Of a DNA stretch of 64,000 nucleotides, positions 4,095-21,743 are shown one piece after another (the first letter of the stretch is position 1; the number at the start of each line of letters is the position of its first letter). Under the pieces are notes generated by a model, which ran no database searches, had not been told where the DNA came from, and saw nothing but the letters and a program-made list of their open reading frames with translations. The translations under genes were made by a program, and so were the position numbers. This stretch comes from Methylobacterium sp. FF17 (lineage in GTDB: Bacteria; Pseudomonadota; Alphaproteobacteria; Rhizobiales; Beijerinckiaceae), in NCBI RefSeq assembly GCF_025813715.1, contig NZ_CP107532.1:4232001-4296000 (forward strand). The letters run 5' to 3'.

Positions 4095-4169
4095 GCGGGT
4101 GTAGCTCAGGGGTAGAGCACAACCTTGCCAAGGTTGGGGTCGAGGGTTCGAATCCCTTCGCCCGCTCCA
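4095..4169 (+). tRNA. tRNA-Gly (anticodon GCC), CCA encoded
   Basis: A complete cloverleaf: acceptor arm GCGGGTG pairs with CGCCCGC (4159-4165), discriminator T, then CCA at 4167-4169. The anticodon stem CAACC/GGTTG closes the loop TTGCCAA with anticodon GCC. The T arm contains the expected GGTTCGAATCC. Phage-derived genes begin directly downstream, so this tRNA 3' end is a natural candidate integration site, but no second copy of its 3' end was found by eye within the window. Confidence 0.96.
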
Positions 4170-7771: not shown

Positions 7772-8365
7772 TCATTCACCGTCCTCTTCGGGCTCCGCGG
7801 GCCCTAGCAGGGCCTCCGGGAGCGTCGGCGTCTCGGCCATCCGTTCCATGATCTCGGCGAGGCCGACTGGCCGGTAGCGCCAGGCGTCGACCCCAACGTC
7901 CAGGCTCAGGGACGTGCCCGGAAGCTTGTTGTGGGAATGCCCGTAGAGGTGTCGCGTCCCCCTCCAAACTCCGTCCCACGTGCGCATGGCGTAATGAGAC
8001 AGGACGAGACGAACCCCGTCCACGTGGATGGTCCGCAGCTTCTCCGGCGGGTCGGCCCAGCCGAGCTGCACGTGCCGGTTCTTGTCATGGTTGCCCACGA
8101 TGAGCCGCTTGGAGCCGTTCAGCCTCGCGAAGACTTCCTGGCACCGTTCGGCCGAGGAGTTCAGTGCGAGATCGCCCAGGTGGAAGACATCATCACCCGG
8201 CCGAACGGTGGCGTTCCAGGCATAGATGAGGTCGTCATCGTGCTTGGCGATGTCGTCCCACGGGCGCTTCTCCATCGCCAGGACGCCCCGGTGCCCGAAA
8301 TGGGTATCCGAGGTGAACCAGGTCCGATGCGAGACGAAGGTCGATTGGATCTTGGGGTTCTTCAT
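7772..8365 (-). CDS. calcineurin-like metallophosphoesterase
   Basis: 197 residues with the full set of metallophosphoesterase motifs in order: SDTHFGH (near residue 19), GDLAL, GNHDKN, LSHYAM and GHSHNK. These bind two metal ions and hydrolyse phosphoesters. Closely related stand-alone proteins are common in phages and plasmids. Substrate unknown. GAGGAGG lies about 7 bp before the ATG. It is convergent with the 7473 gene and divergent from the defence-like cassette that follows. Confidence 0.92.
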   Translation of the reverse strand: MKNPKIQSTFVSHRTWFTSDTHFGHRGVLAMEKRPWDDIAKHDDDLIYAWNATVRPGDDVFHLGDLALNSSAERCQEVFARLNGSKRLIVGNHDKNRHVQLGWADPPEKLRTIHVDGVRLVLSHYAMRTWDGVWRGTRHLYGHSHNKLPGTSLSLDVGVDAWRYRPVGLAEIMERMAETPTLPEALLGPAEPEEDGE

Positions 8366-8668: not shown

Positions 8669-10369
8669 ATGCCGTTTTTCACCCAAGACCATCTACGCCT
8701 CTCCCTGGAGTACCTCGCCGCGAACGGGCACCCGCAACTCATCACCCTTTTGGCGATGTTCCGGACGCGTCTCGAAGTCGGCGACACGGACGACGACGCG
8801 AGCCCTTTCGGCGCCCGTGACGAGAACCTGCTCCTGACCGATTTCTTCAAGCCCTCCGGCGGGCCGGAGGAGCGGCCCCTGTACGTGCCGTTCGGCTTCG
8901 GGCTTGGGACCCCGTCGCCCTGGCGCGACCACCTCTACGCAAGCCGCAGCCTTCAACGCATGCGGAAGGACCGGCAGAACGCCGGCATCGCCTTCCGTCA
9001 AAGCACTGCCGACAACCGCCGCTGGAGCCTGAGGTCGGACTTCATCGAGCACCTCCGGGACAAGAGCGCCGACACCGTCGGCTCCATCCCGTTCCATCTC
9101 GCGATGCTGGCCGTGTGGATGTACCGGACCGAGCCGTTCGAGAGCGTCGAGGAAGCGGTGCAGCGTCTGGTCGCCGACCTGTCGCTCGACGACTACGGCG
9201 TGATCGGCACCGTCTTCTCCACCGCCGTCCCAGGCGATCTTGCGGGTCTGCCCATGCAGGGCCAACCAATGGAGCCGTTGGAGATCCTGGCCCTGTTGGT
9301 CGTCCCGGCTGCGCCTCCTGCCGAGCAGGTCGCGGAAGAGGACGTGGACAAGCCCGGGGACGAGGCCCCCGGCAGGTGGGAGATCAATGCCGCGGATCTC
9401 GGCGACATGGAGGGGCTGGTCGGGCTGATACCCGCCGCGCTCCAGGCGCTGGCCGCGCTGCGGGCGGGCATGCATGTCATCTTCACGGGCGCGCCGGGAA
9501 CCGGGAAGACATCGCTGGCCGTCCTCCTGTGCGACAAGGCCGGATTCCCGTCATGGACCGCCTCGGCCACCGACCAGTGGACGACGTTCGACACCATCGG
9601 CGGCTACTTCCCGGCCGTGCACCGCGAGGGCGCCGGAGAGCAACTCGACTTCCTGCCCGGGCACATCGTGGAGACCATCGAGCAGCGGAAGTGCCTCGTC
9701 ATCGACGAGATCAACCGCGCCGATATCGACAAGGCGTTCGGCGAGATGTTCACGCTGCTGTCCGGGCAGCCCGTCACCCTTCCATTCCGCCGCCGCGATG
9801 CGGACGGCAACTTCCGGCGCCTGCGCCTCGTCCACGGGCCTTCGCTGCAGGAGAGCGACCTCGAACCGATCCAGGTCCCGCCCTGGTGGCGCATCCTGGG
9901 CGCCATGAACGATGCGGACAAGCAGAGCCTCAAGCAACTGTCCTACGCCTTCATGCGGCGCTTCGCGTTCGTCTCGGTCCCGGCGCCGCCGCCCGATGCC
10001 TACGAGGGGCTCATCCGTAGGAATGCCGAGGACCTGCCGGACGGGCTCGTCGACACGCTGGTCGGTCTATTCGCTGACGAGCGTGCCGGCTTCGGGTCGG
10101 TTGGCATCCCCTTCGGTCCCGCCATCCCCCTGACGATGATCAGGCACGCACGACAGCGTCTGGCTGTCGATGCCGCCACCTCGGACGCAGTCCTCATGCG
10201 GGAGCTGCTCGAAGCCTACGTGATCCCTCAGATGCAGGGTCGCGCGGACTTGCACGAGGGCGTCGACGCGCTCCTGTCCGGTAGCCTCGGCGCCGAGGCG
10301 GCCGTCTTCGAGCGACGGTTGGCCGTCTGGACCGGATACATCGCGCCGCCCGAGGATGACCGGGAGTGA
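8669..10369 (+). CDS. McrB-like AAA+ ATPase/GTPase (motor of a McrBC-type system)
   Basis: About 566 residues. The AAA_5/McrB motor is clear: Walker A GAPGTGKTS at about 274-282, Walker B/signature CLVIDEINRADIDKAFGEMF, and GAMNDADKQSLKQLSYAFMR followed by RRFAF. In McrB the corresponding MNxxDR motif reads guanine nucleotide; here the arginine is lysine (MNDADK). The ~250-residue N-terminal region is not a recognised modified-base reader and would be the specificity module. Start uncertain: the frame opens at 8450, but coding character rises near MPFFTQDHLRLSLEYLA; no strong ribosome site was seen. Its stop overlaps the next gene's start (ATGA), so motor and nuclease are made together. Confidence 0.88.
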   Translation: MPFFTQDHLRLSLEYLAANGHPQLITLLAMFRTRLEVGDTDDDASPFGARDENLLLTDFFKPSGGPEERPLYVPFGFGLGTPSPWRDHLYASRSLQRMRKDRQNAGIAFRQSTADNRRWSLRSDFIEHLRDKSADTVGSIPFHLAMLAVWMYRTEPFESVEEAVQRLVADLSLDDYGVIGTVFSTAVPGDLAGLPMQGQPMEPLEILALLVVPAAPPAEQVAEEDVDKPGDEAPGRWEINAADLGDMEGLVGLIPAALQALAALRAGMHVIFTGAPGTGKTSLAVLLCDKAGFPSWTASATDQWTTFDTIGGYFPAVHREGAGEQLDFLPGHIVETIEQRKCLVIDEINRADIDKAFGEMFTLLSGQPVTLPFRRRDADGNFRRLRLVHGPSLQESDLEPIQVPPWWRILGAMNDADKQSLKQLSYAFMRRFAFVSVPAPPPDAYEGLIRRNAEDLPDGLVDTLVGLFADERAGFGSVGIPFGPAIPLTMIRHARQRLAVDAATSDAVLMRELLEAYVIPQMQGRADLHEGVDALLSGSLGAEAAVFERRLAVWTGYIAPPEDDRE

Positions 10370-11643
10370 CGGGTCGTGCCCGGTGGGTGGCGGACCTGAC
10401 CACGTCCCGCCACGTCCACCGCTTCCTGACGCGCATCAGCGCAGCCTCCGACCCGGCCGAGGCTCCGGCCATCGATGAGGCGCAGTTGCGGGCCTACCTC
10501 GATAGCCTCCGGGGCGGAGCGGACGATGCCCGCACCCTGGTGGAGGTCATGGAGCTCATGACCCGGGGGTACGTCGAGTTCATGCAGACGGAATTGCCCA
10601 AGCTCTTGGCGGTCCTGTCGAACCGCACCGAGCATGTGCGCGAGGTCGTCGGTCCGGGGCTGCGTGGCGTCGTGCGTTGGGACCTGACGAAAGTGGGACG
10701 GGCCAACCGGACGCTTCCAAGCGCCCGGTACATCTCCAACGTTCAGCGGCGTTCCTACGAGACCCCTGAGAACGCGCTGCTCGTCTGGTTGCTGACCGAC
10801 ATCGAGCGCGCCGTCGCCCAGATCGGCAAGCGCATCGGCACCCGGCGCCTGCATCCCCTGCTGCGCCTTCTACGGGACGAGAGCCAGGCGGCTCTCCGAC
10901 ATGAAGCCTTGTCGAGCGTGGAGGCCGTGCGCGCCGTTTCCCCTCACATGATCCACGCCGCGAGGCACAATCGCCAGCCGGGATACCGGGCAGCGGCCGC
11001 CCTCGTTCAACGCCGGCGCCGGATGCAGGAAAGAAGCAGGGCCGCACGTTGGTCGCTCATGCTCCAACTGCTCCGCAGCAATTGGCTGGAGCCGGTATCC
11101 GACGATGACCTGTTCGAGATCTACGGCCTCTCGACGGTCCTGTCCGTCCTTTCTGAGGACCTGGGCCTTGGCGAACCCGTGCATTACGGCCTGCTTGGAT
11201 CGACCCTGGAACCGGCCGCGACCTACCGGATGGTGGATGCGACCGTGCGAGTGTGGTTCAACCGGACGCCCGGGCGTGTCCTCGGCATCACCAGCCGGTA
11301 CGCGACCGTGAACGCCACCTATAGCGGACTGGGAGGGTTCGACCGGCGGCCCGACATCATGCTCGTCCTCGAACGAGGGCTGGACCGCCGCACCTTCCTG
11401 GTCGAGGTCAAGAACGCCGGGACCAAGGCTTACCTGCGAGACAGCGTCTACAAGGTCTTCGGTTACCTGCACGACTACGCCCAGGTTTTCGCGGACCGCC
11501 CGACCGACCTCGCTGCGCTCTACGTCCCGGAAGGCATGGTCGGATTTCTCGGGACAGAGGAAGCCGCGTCGGGCATGACCATCGTCTGCGAGGGCGACAG
11601 ACCCCGACTGGCGAGCGCCCTCAGGTCGGGCCTCGGCCTGTAG
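10366..11643 (+). CDS. McrC-like PD-(D/E)XK nuclease partner
   Basis: 425 residues. The C-terminal domain has the core of a PD-(D/E)XK nuclease: D330 in RRPDIMLVLERG and E347-V-K349 in FLVEVKN. The long N-terminal helical region (residues ~1-220) is where McrC-type partners contact the McrB motor. It resembles the DUF2357/McrC-like nucleases that pair with McrB motors, but I could not fix the exact subfamily. The 4-bp overlap with the McrB-like gene supports an obligate complex. Expected role: motor-driven cleavage of foreign DNA carrying a recognised feature. Confidence 0.82.
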   Translation: MTGRARWVADLTTSRHVHRFLTRISAASDPAEAPAIDEAQLRAYLDSLRGGADDARTLVEVMELMTRGYVEFMQTELPKLLAVLSNRTEHVREVVGPGLRGVVRWDLTKVGRANRTLPSARYISNVQRRSYETPENALLVWLLTDIERAVAQIGKRIGTRRLHPLLRLLRDESQAALRHEALSSVEAVRAVSPHMIHAARHNRQPGYRAAAALVQRRRRMQERSRAARWSLMLQLLRSNWLEPVSDDDLFEIYGLSTVLSVLSEDLGLGEPVHYGLLGSTLEPAATYRMVDATVRVWFNRTPGRVLGITSRYATVNATYSGLGGFDRRPDIMLVLERGLDRRTFLVEVKNAGTKAYLRDSVYKVFGYLHDYAQVFADRPTDLAALYVPEGMVGFLGTEEAASGMTIVCEGDRPRLASALRSGLGL

Positions 11644-11740
11644 CAGACTGTCCACTCCGATACCGGCATTGCCCGTTGACTTCGGGTTCGTCACCGCGTT
11701 GGCTGTCGGCAGGCGTGATCACTCCTGAGTACCAGAGATA

Positions 11741-12910
11741 ATGAACGACCAGGCATTCAAGCACGGCGCGAAAGCGGAGGTCGAACGCCTCCTGACCATC
11801 GAAGAAGTCGCAGAAACGCTGCAGGTGTCGGCAGTTACGGTCCGACGCATCGTCGCGAAGGAGGAGCTCGCCACGGTCCGGATCGGAGAGCGCCATATAC
11901 GCGTGACGCCGACAGCTCTTCAGGCGTACATCGATGGGCAGGCCCGTCAGCGGCCAAGCGCGGTTCGGCCGATTACCGAGACGGCGAGGCCGGGAAAGAG
12001 GACCGCTCCGGCAAAGGTGTTCGAGGGCGTCACCGGCTCGAAGCTTTCGTGGACGGTCATCCAGGCAGACGCCGCGCAGGGCATGAAGGGGCTCCCTGCT
12101 GAGAGCGTCGACTGCATCGTGACCTCCCCACCGTACTACTGGCAGCGCGACTACGGCTACGATGGTCAGATCGGCCACGAGCAGACCATCGACGGGTTCG
12201 TGCAAGCGCTCCGGGAGGTGTTCTCCGAGGCGCGACGCGTGCTGAAGCCGACCGGAACCCTGTTCCTGAACATCGGGGACACCTACTACTCGGCGAAAGG
12301 CAAGCCTCACGGCCAGGACCTCAAGAACGCGGGACGCCAGATGGCCCGAAAGGTCCTCCGCGCCGTCGACGGACCAGGGCTTGGCCTTCCGCGGAAATCG
12401 CTGATCGGCATCCCATGGCGCGTGGCCCTGGCCCTGCAGCAGGATGGCTGGACGCTTCGCAGCGACATCATCTGGGATCGACCAGGATCGCTGGGGGAGC
12501 CGACTGCCAAGGACCGTCCCTGGAGGCGCTTCGAGCACATCTTCATGTTCTCGCGGGCGCCACGCTACTTCTTCGACCGGACCGGGCTTGAGGGCAGCGA
12601 GGACATCTGGACCTTCCCCGCCCGACCGGACAACCCGGCGCCCCACTTCGCCCCCTATCCGCGCGAGCTCGTGTCCCGATGCCTCGCCATCGGTTGCGTA
12701 CCGGGCGGGGTGGTCCTCGACCCGTTCGTGGGTAGCGGCACGACGATGGTCGCCGCCCTGGAAAGCGGCAGACCAGCCATCGGCATCGATCTCAATCCGG
12801 AATACTGCACCCAGGCGCTACGGTGGGTTTCGGAGAAACCGCGAGCCCGCCGTCGCCCAGCCGGAACCGACGCCCGCGCCACGAAACTGCTGCCGGGCCT
12901 TGAGGCCTGA
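11741..12910 (+). CDS. DNA methyltransferase (beta class) fused to an N-terminal excisionase-type HTH domain
   Basis: 389 residues. The C-terminal part is an amino-methyltransferase: catalytic motif IV TSPPYY at 128-132 precedes the SAM-binding motif I DPFVGSGTT at 327-335, the order of beta-class N4-cytosine or N6-adenine enzymes. TSPPY leans to N4-cytosine but does not prove it. Residues about 14-65 (EEVAETLQVSAVTVRRIVAK, then RIGERHIRVTPTALQAYI) are an excisionase/MerR-like winged HTH, an unusual N-terminal addition. Lying 97 bp after the nuclease gene, it may mark self DNA or recruit the system to one site. Confidence 0.9.
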   Translation: MNDQAFKHGAKAEVERLLTIEEVAETLQVSAVTVRRIVAKEELATVRIGERHIRVTPTALQAYIDGQARQRPSAVRPITETARPGKRTAPAKVFEGVTGSKLSWTVIQADAAQGMKGLPAESVDCIVTSPPYYWQRDYGYDGQIGHEQTIDGFVQALREVFSEARRVLKPTGTLFLNIGDTYYSAKGKPHGQDLKNAGRQMARKVLRAVDGPGLGLPRKSLIGIPWRVALALQQDGWTLRSDIIWDRPGSLGEPTAKDRPWRRFEHIFMFSRAPRYFFDRTGLEGSEDIWTFPARPDNPAPHFAPYPRELVSRCLAIGCVPGGVVLDPFVGSGTTMVAALESGRPAIGIDLNPEYCTQALRWVSEKPRARRRPAGTDARATKLLPGLEA

Positions 12911-12944
12911 GGCATCGACCCGAACACCTCGGTGACAGTCCGCC

Positions 12945-13871
12945 ATGAACTCTCCTACGCCAATCAACGCCGGTTCCGCTGCGCGCCTACCTGAGGAAGT
13001 CCTGCGCGGGCTGAAGCCGTTGGCTCCGGATGAGTTCTCGCGGCAACTGCTCGATAGCGCCGCGAGCGTGATCGAGGATCAGGGCAACTTCCTGCGACTG
13101 AACTACTTCTCCGTCGCGGTTCGTGTCTTCTTCGAGCACATCATGGGCACGTTGTCGCCCGACGACCAAGTGTCGAGCTGCCCCTGGTTCCAGCTTGAGG
13201 ACGGCCAGGACAAGCCGACGCGGGCGCAACGCATCAAGTATTGGCTGCAAGGCGGCTTGACCGACGATTACCTTGTTGCCGAACTGAGCCTCGACCCCGC
13301 CCCATTGCGCAAGCGCCTGATGAAGGCGTTTAGCCGCCTCAGCAAGCATGTTCACGTTCGGGAGAACACGGTCGTTTACGAACCGGCAATCCAAGCCACC
13401 GAGATCGATCAGGCGACGTTGGCGGTCGAGGAGCTCCTGTTGGCGTACCGCGACTGCCGGAATGCGCTCTTGGAACCTCTAGCCGAAGCTCTCGACGAGG
13501 AAGCCGTCGACACCCTCATGTCCGAGACCATCGGAGACATCGACGAGTTGGCCACGCATCACTCGCTCGAAGAGGTCTATACTGCTGACACGTGCGTTCT
13601 GGACATCGGCCCACGGTTCGTAAGGTACCAGGCGTCGGGGACTGTCTCGGTCCTGCTGCAGTACGGCTCCAACTCGGACGTGAGGCGCGGTGATGGCGCG
13701 GAGATGAGCACAAGCTTTCCCTTCGCCGTCGAGTTTGAGGTGCCTCTGGAAGAGCCCCGCGACTTGCGGAACGCGCATATCGTTTCCGGGGTCGATACTG
13801 CATCCTGGTTCGATGTGCCTGATGACGAGGACCTGCCTGACGTAGCCGACGACGCAGACTCTCCATTTTGA
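12945..13871 (+). CDS. protein resembling pPIWI-associating nucleases
   Basis: 308 residues, soluble. The N-terminal ~150 residues (LNYFSVAVRVFFEHIMGTLS, then RAQRIKYWLQGGLTDDYL and SRLSKHVHVRENTVV) recall the predicted pPIWI-associating nuclease domain described in defence islands; that match is from memory and moderate. The C-terminal half is acidic and ends in a run of Asp and Glu (PDDEDLPDVADDADS). No classical nuclease triad is obvious. It follows the methyltransferase by 34 bp on the same strand and closes the cassette; a 120-bp gap then precedes the HTH-like gene. Confidence 0.55.
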   Translation: MNSPTPINAGSAARLPEEVLRGLKPLAPDEFSRQLLDSAASVIEDQGNFLRLNYFSVAVRVFFEHIMGTLSPDDQVSSCPWFQLEDGQDKPTRAQRIKYWLQGGLTDDYLVAELSLDPAPLRKRLMKAFSRLSKHVHVRENTVVYEPAIQATEIDQATLAVEELLLAYRDCRNALLEPLAEALDEEAVDTLMSETIGDIDELATHHSLEEVYTADTCVLDIGPRFVRYQASGTVSVLLQYGSNSDVRRGDGAEMSTSFPFAVEFEVPLEEPRDLRNAHIVSGVDTASWFDVPDDEDLPDVADDADSPF

Positions 13872-14471: not shown

Positions 14472-14548
14472 CGCTTTCTTCAGAGGTGACGGGGTAACCT
14501 CATCGAACGCGTCTGATTTCCGATCAGGTGCGAGGTGGAGCACCCGTC

Positions 14549-16189
14549 ATGAAGTCCATTTCCCGCTTTGAAGCGGCTGAGCCCCTGTCCGCGCACAACA
14601 TCCTGTGCGGCACGCTCCCCCCTCCAGACCGGCGCGACGAACACCCATTCGTCCCGCTGATCACATACCTGGACGTGCGCTGCCCTGAGCAGCCGCACGG
14701 CTGGAACGCCACGGCCGACGTCTTTTTCGACGACATCCTAGCTGGGCTGCTCGGGTCCGCCTGCGGCATCCGCGAGGCCCTGCAGCGAGGGACGATGGAT
14801 CTCGCCGCGGCCCGCATCGCCGTCGAGACCCTTCGCAAGCGCTGCATCGCCCATGGCGAACGGCTCGACGCGTGCAACGTCTTCGCCGAACACGATGACG
14901 TCGAGAAGGCGGTGACGGACACTGCCCGCCTGCGTGCGCATTGCGATGTCGGGCTCACGGGCTGCGGGGACCTCACGGCCCTGGCGCGCCTCGCGGAGAT
15001 GGGGGAGACGTGCATCCTACTGCGGGCGGACGGCTTCGTGGATTTCGTGCTGGGCGCCCGGGCCTATCTCGCCGGTGCCGACGAGACACCGCTCGTCTGG
15101 CGGCAAGGTCCGCCCCTCCCTCTGATCGCACGCAGCCTGGACCTTGGGCGCTCGATCCTAGCCCGGCGCGAGCAGGCGCAGGTCCGGGAGACCCATGCCG
15201 AGGCGATGGACGACGACTGCGCCGGCATCCGGCGGATCGCGTCGTCGGCCCCGGACCCGGCCATTGACCCGGAACCGAGGACCGAGCCGGGCGTGACCGG
15301 CCTGTCACTCGTCGTCATCCCCTCGCTCAAGCACTTGCCGCTGCCGAGCAAGCACTCCCGCGACAGAGGCGATAGCCCGCGTGCCTTGTGCGAGGACCTC
15401 TCCGAGAAGGCCTTGGCTCTGACGCCGGCGCCAGATCCGGCCGCGTTCAGCGCGAGGCTCCTGGCGGACTACCCGTGGGCTGCGGAAGTCATCGAAGCGT
15501 ACGCCCAGGATCTCGTCGGAGCTCCGTTCGCACGGTTCCGACCCCGGACGCTTGTTAGCGGAGCCGGTGGGGGAAAGACCTCGTTTGCCCGGTCATTGCT
15601 CCGGGCGGCGGGCCTGCCCGAGGTGCTTTACTCCGCCGCGGGCGTCATGGATGGCGGCAATTTCGCGGGGGCGTCGAGGACCTGGAGCACATGGCGCCTG
15701 TCGGTCCCGGGCCAGGGCGTCTTGCGGTTCGGGCAGGCGAGCCTGGGGGTCATCATCGATGAAGCGGAGAAGGCAGGTCCGTCCCGTCGGTGGGGCCGGC
15801 TTGACGAGACGCTTTTGCCGTTCCTCGAACGGGGCACGACCGCTCGGGCCATTTTCGACCCGGCGCTGGAGGTGCCACTCGATCTGAGCGGCATCAGCTA
15901 CATCCTGACGGCGAACGAGGGCCGGGGCATGTCGGGGCCCTTGCTGGACCGGGCACCCCCCGTGGAGTGGCCAATGCCACGCCGGCAGGACATGCCCATC
16001 GTCGCGGCCGCAATCCTTGACGAGCTCCGTCGCGAGCGGGGCCTCGATGAGGTCTGGTGTCCGCCCTTGGATAGGGATGAGCTCGACGCCCTGACGGCGT
16101 GGCGAGGAGGCTCGATGCGCCCCCTACGCCGCATGGTCGAGGCCGTGGTCTCCTCCCGCGAGACGTTCGCCCGCCGTCAGCCGAACTAG
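14549..16189 (+). CDS. AAA+ ATPase, Lon/ClpX-like motor without protease domain
   Basis: 546 residues. The N-terminal ~290 residues are unrecognised; then a Lon-like AAA+ module: Walker A GAGGGKT (338-344), Walker B GVIIDEAEKAG (D404-E405), a polar sensor segment ILTANEGRG and a C-terminal lid. No Ser-Lys protease domain follows. The start at ATG 14549 is preferred over the upstream GTG because GGTGGAG lies at suitable distance. It could be a remodelling ATPase for phage replication or for defence. A GTG-started small gene follows 9 bp after its stop, after a strong AGGAGG. Confidence 0.8.
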   Translation: MKSISRFEAAEPLSAHNILCGTLPPPDRRDEHPFVPLITYLDVRCPEQPHGWNATADVFFDDILAGLLGSACGIREALQRGTMDLAAARIAVETLRKRCIAHGERLDACNVFAEHDDVEKAVTDTARLRAHCDVGLTGCGDLTALARLAEMGETCILLRADGFVDFVLGARAYLAGADETPLVWRQGPPLPLIARSLDLGRSILARREQAQVRETHAEAMDDDCAGIRRIASSAPDPAIDPEPRTEPGVTGLSLVVIPSLKHLPLPSKHSRDRGDSPRALCEDLSEKALALTPAPDPAAFSARLLADYPWAAEVIEAYAQDLVGAPFARFRPRTLVSGAGGGKTSFARSLLRAAGLPEVLYSAAGVMDGGNFAGASRTWSTWRLSVPGQGVLRFGQASLGVIIDEAEKAGPSRRWGRLDETLLPFLERGTTARAIFDPALEVPLDLSGISYILTANEGRGMSGPLLDRAPPVEWPMPRRQDMPIVAAAILDELRRERGLDEVWCPPLDRDELDALTAWRGGSMRPLRRMVEAVVSSRETFARRQPN

Positions 16190-20596: not shown

Positions 20597-21154
20597 TCAG
20601 ATCCCCTTCAGGCAGAGGGCCTGCTCGCGCTTCCGGCGGGCGACGAGCCCGGGGACGACCTTGCCGCCGGCGCGGTTGAACAGGAGGACCGCGTTGCAGG
20701 CCCCGGCCTTGTCGCCGGCGTTCCAGCGCTTGACGGCCGTGCTCTTGCAGAAGGCGCTCGCGCCGACGTTGTAGGCGAGGTCGAGGAAGGCGACGTAGGG
20801 CTCGTCGGCGATGGGACCCTTGATGCAGCGCTCGACCGAGGCGTCGGCGAACTCGCCCAGCGCCTTGACCAGCATGGCGTCGCACTGGGCCTTGGTGAAC
20901 CGCATGCCGAGCTCGATGCCGCGGGTCTCGCCGTAGCAGACGGTCGGCAGGTCCTTGGCCAGCCGGTCCTTGTAGGTGACGAGCTTCAGGCCCTCGTTCG
21001 GGCCCGTGGTCGAGACGGCCATGGCGGCGACGCCCGTCACCGTCCCGGCCGCGGTGATGGCCGCGAGGATGCGGTTCCGGCCCTTCGAGGGGGTGGCGGC
21101 CTTGGGCTTGGCGGCCGGCGACCGGAGGAGACGGGCGAGGGAGAAGCGGGCCAT
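20597..21154 (-). CDS. GH24 lysozyme (endolysin), probably signal-arrest-release type
   Basis: 185 residues. The catalytic Glu-Asp-Thr set of phage lysozymes is visible as E54 (GPNEGL), D63 (YKDRL) and T71 (LPTVCYGET); the E-to-D spacing is as in T4, the D-to-T spacing two residues longer. Residues ~29-48 (ILAAITAAGTVTGVAAMAVS) form a weakly hydrophobic Ala/Gly-rich helix just before the catalytic Glu, as in SAR endolysins that leave the membrane to become active. Cysteines around residue 73 and in CIKG and ACNA may form activating disulphides. Overlaps the holin-like gene by 1 bp. Confidence 0.88.
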   Translation of the reverse strand: MARFSLARLLRSPAAKPKAATPSKGRNRILAAITAAGTVTGVAAMAVSTTGPNEGLKLVTYKDRLAKDLPTVCYGETRGIELGMRFTKAQCDAMLVKALGEFADASVERCIKGPIADEPYVAFLDLAYNVGASAFCKSTAVKRWNAGDKAGACNAVLLFNRAGGKVVPGLVARRKREQALCLKGI

Positions 21155-21384
21155 CACTGGTCTCCGGACAGGCAGGACTGGGCGACGAGGCGGGCCGCCA
21201 TGCCGGCGAGGTTCACGCCGGCGTAGGCAGCCGCGAACACGCCCGGGGAGACCGGGGGCGACGCCGCGAAGACGGACATGCCGAGCTCGACGGCGCCGAG
21301 GACCGCGCCGAGGGCGTTGAGCCGGAACGACCAGGAGTGCCGGGCGACGCGCTTCGGATGGGGGACGAGCTTGGGGCGCCTCAT
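21154..21384 (-). CDS. holin-like protein (DUF7940-type)
   Basis: 76 residues with HSWSFRLNALGAVLGAVELG and a second hydrophobic segment VFAAAYAGVNLAGMAARLVA: two membrane helices and a basic N-terminus. The HSWSxRLxALGAVL motif is common in small phage proteins annotated as holins. It lies immediately before the endolysin gene, as holins do. Role: timed permeabilisation of the inner membrane. Confidence 0.75.
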   Translation of the reverse strand: MRRPKLVPHPKRVARHSWSFRLNALGAVLGAVELGMSVFAASPPVSPGVFAAAYAGVNLAGMAARLVAQSCLSGDQ

Positions 21385-21743
21385 GCGTGCGGCCTCCGGT
21401 TCCGGTGGGACCGCTGCGACCTGGGCGGTGCGGCGCCGCCACCGTTCCCGCCGTCGCCGTCGTCGTCGCCACGGATGGTCCGGCGCAGGATCTCGCCGTG
21501 GTCGTGCAGCGCCCGGGTCAGGTCCGTCCCCGTCCTTGCCAGGGTGAAGGCCAGGTCGAGCGCGACCGGATCGAGCGCGACCCGCGGGAGTGTCGCCACG
21601 GACTCGGGCGGCCGGCGGACCTCCTTGATGCGCGCGACGACGTAGGTGCCCAGGGCGAGGCATGCGCCGCCGAGCACGGTGCCGGCAGCCTTGAGGTACT
21701 CGGCCGGGAGGGTGGTGACGGTGGAGAGCCAGTCGCCGGTCAT
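21381..21743 (-). CDS. hypothetical phage membrane protein
   Basis: 120 residues with one membrane helix (AAGTVLGGACLALGTYVVAR) and a charged, helical cytosolic tail ending in a Gly/Asp-rich, then Arg/His-rich segment. Overlaps both neighbours by 4 bp. Small proteins of this layout are frequent beside holins; no defined function. Confidence 0.6.
   Translation of the reverse strand: MTGDWLSTVTTLPAEYLKAAGTVLGGACLALGTYVVARIKEVRRPPESVATLPRVALDPVALDLAFTLARTGTDLTRALHDHGEILRRTIRGDDDGDGGNGGGAAPPRSQRSHRNRRPHA

Follow-up and report, generated by a model that had tools for sequence, protein, structure and literature searches.

Three adjacent genes of Methylobacterium sp. FF17 as a probable mobile restriction-modification system with an McrBC-type nuclease

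Introduction

Classical (type IV) McrBC systems read methylated DNA and lack a cognate methyltransferase (PMC8989522). Association of McrBC-type genes with methyltransferases has nevertheless been published (PMC11090510, PMC8989522, PMC1459862), so that the lack of a cognate methyltransferase, given as the norm for McrBC in a preliminary description of the DNA analyzed here, holds for the classical systems only. In LlaJI of Lactococcus lactis, the McrB-like subunit R1 binds the site and sets specificity, while restriction requires R2 as well as R1 (PMC1459862); PcaI restricts unmethylated DNA (PMC8989522). Clades of motors bearing the NxxD motif with predicted methyltransferases nearby, as in the locus described below, were reported in a census that defers methyltransferase-associated McrBC clades to a later publication (PMC11090510). 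Here we analyze a 64,000-nucleotide stretch of Methylobacterium sp. FF17 (the window; positions 4,232,001-4,296,000 of the 5.7-Mb contig NZ_CP107532.1) that carries an McrB-like motor gene (g1), an McrC-like gene (g2), a methyltransferase gene (g3) and a fourth gene (g4). From their sequences and gene neighborhoods, g1-g2-g3 are probably a mobile restriction-modification (RM) system with an McrBC-type nuclease.

Results and discussion

Four plus-strand open reading frames (ORFs) were confirmed in the order g1-g2-g3-g4 (Table 1), with a 4-bp overlap between g1 and g2, a gap of 97 bp between g2 and g3, and one of 34 bp between g3 and g4. ORF positions and family searches thus bore out the anatomy given in the preliminary description, namely an McrB-like motor gene and a PD-(D/E)XK gene overlapping by 4 bp, followed at short distances on the same strand by a beta-class methyltransferase with a helix-turn-helix (HTH) and a 308-residue protein. 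With the exception of the weak family match of g2, the anatomy and family matches are far beyond chance.

Table 1. Positions in the window of the genes and other features discussed in the text.
Feature	Position	Strand	Basis or remark
g1: McrB-like AAA+ motor subunit, NxxD class, 566 aa	8669..10369	+	AAA_5, PDB McrB chains, motifs
g1 N-terminal domain, residues 1-240, proposed DNA target-recognition domain	8669..9388	+	profile search
g2: McrC-like subunit, 425 aa, PD-(D/E)XK motif at residues 328-349	10366..11643	+	weak DUF2357, motif, position beside McrB
g3: HTH_17 and beta-class amino-methyltransferase, SPPY motif IV, 389 aa	11741..12910	+	Pfam, PDB matches
g4: pP_pnuc protein, 308 aa, adjoining, judged outside the core	12945..13871	+	Pfam, PADLOC, neighborhoods
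3' part of tRNA-Gly, 45-bp exact repeat, possible island end	4125..4169	+	second copy ~95 kb downstream
Phage-type phosphoesterase	7772-8365		directly upstream of the cassette
Phage_lysozyme domain protein, minus strand	20597-21472		

The product of g1 matched AAA_5 (E 8.9e-15) and the McrB chains of the PDB (E 7e-9), and carries the Walker A (GAPGTGKT), Walker B (LVIDEINR) and NxxD (NDAD) motifs of an McrB-like AAA+ subunit. Since its open frame extends up to 8450, the start codon is a choice; the homologue in locus L047, a viral contig described below, starts at the equivalent MPFF. Directly 3' of g1, g2 occupies the place held by an McrC-like gene beside McrB in L047, L048, L049, L002 and L010, and its RRPD...EVK motif is kept in all six rows of the g2 alignment (A9), D330, E347 and K349 being invariant. 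The g3 product matched HTH_17 (E 1.3e-9) and N6_N4_Mtase (E 9e-44), and its motif IV (SPPY) precedes motif I (DPFxGSGTT), the order found in beta-class amino-methyltransferases. Its PDB matches include N4-cytosine (E 7e-22) and adenine methyltransferases; SPPY is presumably a sign of N4-cytosine methylation.

Compared with the described systems, g1-g2 have the motor and nuclease architecture of classical McrBC. LlaJI shares with g1-g3 an McrB-like subunit whose unique N-terminal half sets site specificity, an McrC-like PD-(D/E)XK subunit, cognate methylation and similarly oriented genes, but it has two C5 (5mC) methyltransferases and an asymmetric site (PMC1459862) where g1-g3 have one beta-class amino-methyltransferase with an HTH; LlaJI moreover recognizes DNA by a B3 domain (PMC12707154), whereas the N-terminal domain of g1 has no known relative. 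PcaI likewise is a mobile RM system with a bipartite McrBC-like nuclease (AAA and DUF2357), one methyltransferase and a DNA-binding part unlike that of McrB; its methyltransferase, in contrast to the beta-class SPPY enzyme with a fused HTH encoded by g3, is a Dcm-type enzyme acting at CCNGG (PMC8989522). No description of a g1-type N-terminal domain appears in the available text of the census (PMC11090510), nor was one found in a literature search that was thin on subscription journals. The kind of system is already known; what is new here is the beta-class HTH methyltransferase together with an apparently exchangeable N-terminal domain.

The three-gene arrangement recurs in an IMG/VR viral contig (L047), where g1, g2 and g3 homologues (42% identity over residues 1-558, 36% and 56%, respectively) likewise follow one another in this order. 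The first two again overlap by 4 bp, and 103 bp separate the second from the methyltransferase gene; a Glyco_hydro_108 gene lies farther on. In L010/L027 and L049, McrB and McrC genes are accompanied by a convergent methyltransferase gene of HTH-bearing length. A methyltransferase gene is therefore conserved next to the nuclease genes in L047, L049, L010/L027 and other loci and, unlike in type IV McrBC, belongs to the conserved core. In the 14 McrB-like viral loci that scored highest in the motor search (L047-L060), McrC is present in 10 and a beta-type methyltransferase match likewise in 10, although eight of the latter matches are weak (E 4e-8 to 2e-13) and point to another methyltransferase family. 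In L048, a Dcm-like methyltransferase and a Vsr-like ORF, recognized by eye, take the place of the beta type. No methyltransferase was seen in L053, L056 or L058, the available DNA ending 2.1 kb (L053) and 0.5 kb (L056) after the motor ORF.

Plasmids yielded 713 records with g3 relatives, of which 30 were listed and 14 inspected. Downstream of each of the best four by bit score among the 30 listed (L033-L036) come an AAA gene and a second gene. The second protein of L035 belongs to the Pfam McrBC family, those of L034 and L036 share 63% and 48% identity with it, and that of L033 is only weakly McrC-like (E 3e-6); three PF10117 members were counted among 12 proteins. One further inspected relative has an AAA gene and an annotated DUF2357 gene downstream. 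Three others (L037, L038 and L045) pair with a one-subunit XcyI-family restriction enzyme, an ordinary RM partner; in these XcyI/Pac25I-type RM systems the methyltransferase has ~44% identity to residues 105-360 of g3.

One clade of the methyltransferase tree (100/99) comprised the window, L047, L094, L095, L033 and L096, the placement of L044, L027 and L049 being unsure. By the beta-class motif order, the middle region of g3 was assigned to target recognition; there, members of this clade share 64-72% identity with the window, as against 50-53% in L034-L036 and 41-42% in the XcyI partners. The higher identity within the clade is as would be expected from matched recognition, although it is a correlation only. 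The XcyI relatives suggested CCCGGG, the site of the XcyI/Pac25I type, as the target; because the middle region is more conserved within the clade of g3 than with the XcyI partners, this site is not claimed for g3. A candidate operator for the HTH of g3 in the g2-g3 gap was dropped, since the inverted-repeat arms were no longer than in shuffled sequences (of 500 shuffles each, arms as long arose in 493 for the window, in 111 for L047 and in 263 for the region preceding the L094 methyltransferase gene).

To follow the N-terminal domain of g1 across loci, a profile was built from the window, L047, L094 and L095; it further found L033 (E 4e-18), L027 (6e-7), L049 (9e-7) and L044 (1e-6), the domain standing in L044 on a separate ORF between the methyltransferase and AAA genes. 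By tblastn, the domain had given no plasmid match at E 0.01, although the profile later found the plasmid locus L033. All seven outside loci with the domain carry a g3-like methyltransferase (E <= 1e-34). In the motor-search set of 47 loci, the domain and a strong g3-like methyltransferase occur in two loci each, and these are the same two (Fisher p 9e-4, with a methyltransferase cut-off set after the values were seen). The motors that bear the domain differ: the g1 motor profile, at an E cut-off of 1e-3, did not match those of L094 and L095, and their partner proteins show a sub-threshold DUF2357 match (L095) or none (L094, whose partner resembles that of L033, E 2e-6), while the L033 motor matches the g1 profile (E 2e-26) and its partner does not match that of g2. 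Conversely, L048 has the g1/g2 type of motor and nuclease without the domain, beside its Dcm-like methyltransferase. When mapped on the methyltransferase tree, presence of the domain required two changes, a number as low in 3 of 500 shuffles; L096, which ends 98 bp after its methyltransferase match, was not assessable for the domain.

The occurrence of the domain beside g3-like methyltransferases on other motors, together with the L048 type lacking it, suggests a movable recognition module matched to the methyltransferase. We tentatively propose that residues 1-240 of g1 form a DNA target-recognition domain of a kind not yet named, which together with the methyltransferase may make up a specificity cartridge exchanged between different McrBC-type motor/nuclease pairs. 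Several findings on the domain weigh against an RM system in which g1 would read the site through it. The seven-locus counts are biased, since three of the seven (L047, L094 and L095) built the profile and four (L033, L044, L094 and L095) were fetched through the methyltransferase; L034-L036, the next nearest by methyltransferase, lack the domain by profile search; its predicted structure had a predicted local distance difference test (pLDDT) score of 42.9 and no confident fold; and no credible sequence relative was found in the PDB (best E 0.066). If the proposal is true, McrBC-type nucleases would be re-targetable, motor and methyltransferase site recognition travelling together from one DNA-translocating engine to another; the specificity of this class of restriction could be predicted from one domain; and the methyltransferases beside many McrBC operons would be partly explained. 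As a separate observation, the PADLOC PtuA1 model matched residues 3-169 of g1 (8669-9175; E 4e-8), so that this model may label such proteins as Septu.

A mechanism may be drawn up from the gene content, the motifs, the three-gene order and the co-occurrence of the N-terminal domain with g3-type methyltransferases across different motors. Since LlaJI and PcaI offer precedents, g3 would be expected to methylate, g1 to recognize DNA and translocate, and g2 to cut. The g3 enzyme would thereby mark a specific site in the host's own DNA; g1 would read the same site, when unmethylated, through its N-terminal domain, assemble as a ring and move along the DNA; and g2 would dock on g1 and cleave. In this scheme the catalytic steps, the target site, the direction in which methylation affects cutting, the formation of a ring and the regulation are all predictions. 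Regulation of the cassette is the probable role of the HTH of g3; M.SsoII, too, acts on gene expression through an HTH. The operon regulated by the methyltransferase M.SsoII is its own RM operon (PMC6100179).

The preliminary description had left the choice between RM using McrBC machinery and a modification-dependent system whose methyltransferase marks self. The order conserved in L047 and the AAA and second genes following the four best-scoring listed plasmid relatives of g3 support the former for g1-g3, and the latter is disfavored. A related reading, in which g1-g2 would cut foreign-modified DNA in the manner of type IV systems and g3 would be a co-carried methyltransferase with another role, such as competing with a host enzyme, appears unlikely: classical McrBC is modification-dependent and g1 has the classical NxxD motif, but methyltransferases recur near this McrB type (11 of the 14 strong loci, most of other families), the methyltransferase and the N-terminal domain stay together across differing motors, and the closest tested designs restrict unmethylated DNA. 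Further points against an RM system of g1-g3 concern g2 and the rarity of the core. The DUF2357 match of g2 (16.0 bits) is under the Pfam cut-off of 23.3, and hhalign gave no link between the g2 profile and the L034-L036 proteins of PF10117 type (probability 0.5%). Matches to g1 were found in 3 of 385 genomes of the class, the window's own included, and to g2 in 2 of 385, one being the window's own; among relatives, the core was present in the window's own genome only (1 of 99). The third of the g1 matches in the class (G262, L032) sits at a contig end. In addition, the annotation beside 6 of the 14 g3 relatives inspected in plasmids shows neither an McrBC nor an XcyI gene. Searched with g2 itself, viral contigs and genome contigs gave no relative and plasmids one record, and a search of the phylum with the McrC alignment returned the window's own genome only (1 of 398).

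The fourth gene had been put forward as an extra effector of the cassette. Its product matched pP_pnuc_1 (E 7.6e-26), pP_pnuc_2 (E 4.9e-33) and the PADLOC Aga_Nuclease model (E 4.8e-101), with a profile match over both domains. No Argonaute or pPIWI domain was found in the seven proteins scanned between 7772 and 16189. Homologues of g4 were sought among plasmids (59 records, the first three listed being inspected) and reference genomes (11 loci, the partial L025 being left out), giving 13 distinct loci (L003-L005, L015-L024) with flanks of 6-7 kb, shorter at contig ends (1.7 kb upstream in L016). A relative of g1, g2 or g3 was found in the fetched DNA of none of the 13, and g4 in none of 16 other distinct loci bearing both McrB- and McrC-type genes (L002, L006-L009, L027, L047-L052, L054, L055, L057, L058). 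A species of the same genus has g4 at 78% identity and no g1 or g2 match in its genome. On these three grounds g4 was judged a neighboring cargo gene outside the core. Of the four genes expected to stay together elsewhere, g1-g2-g3 do so in L047, but g4 does not, and a four-gene cassette is not supported. A four-gene system in which g4 would serve the RM core as an additional nuclease or abortive effector, as its same-strand position so close behind g3 might suggest, is accordingly very unlikely, although g4 may be co-transcribed with g3 in the window. Less likely still is a chance or degraded arrangement of a solitary methyltransferase beside a relic, non-working McrBC, which would suit the rarity of the core among relatives and the frequent decay of island cargo but not three intact frames with catalytic motifs kept and an order conserved with a distant relative.

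Queries with g4 against viral contigs and phage records found no relative. Members of the g4 family have an R-x4-H motif in N-terminal helices and a C-terminal sheet domain, and g4 is possibly a HEPN-like RNase instead of a classical nuclease. In a Microvirga plasmid (L004, 5980-7378), a g4 homologue is followed by a 42% relative of the phosphoesterase of the window; in L003 (5275-6843) and L023 (6434-7786), the pP_pnuc domains have an N-terminal extension of ~180-250 residues with no family match.

The cassette lies in a possible island, the 45-bp repeat of the tRNA-Gly 3' end recurring in the genome and bounding ~95 kb. In a sister species (L110), the right-hand repeat is present without the tRNA, which makes the island ends old and tentative. 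None of the 13 tyrosine-integrase matches of the genome falls between the repeats, and a plain prophage reading of the whole island was rejected. The phage-derived region of the preliminary description stands insofar as phage-type lysozyme and phosphoesterase genes are nearby, but from ~33 kb on the window holds mostly metal and efflux cargo (chromate, nickel and RND/HlyD transport genes) and an IS110-type transposase. These contents suit a plain prophage less well than a mobile island carrying some phage-type genes, although family matches were obtained for only a minority of the ORFs between 4 and 33 kb. Downstream of g4, a 158-residue protein without family match is followed by a 553-residue protein (14528-16189) with a weak Lon-like AAA domain.

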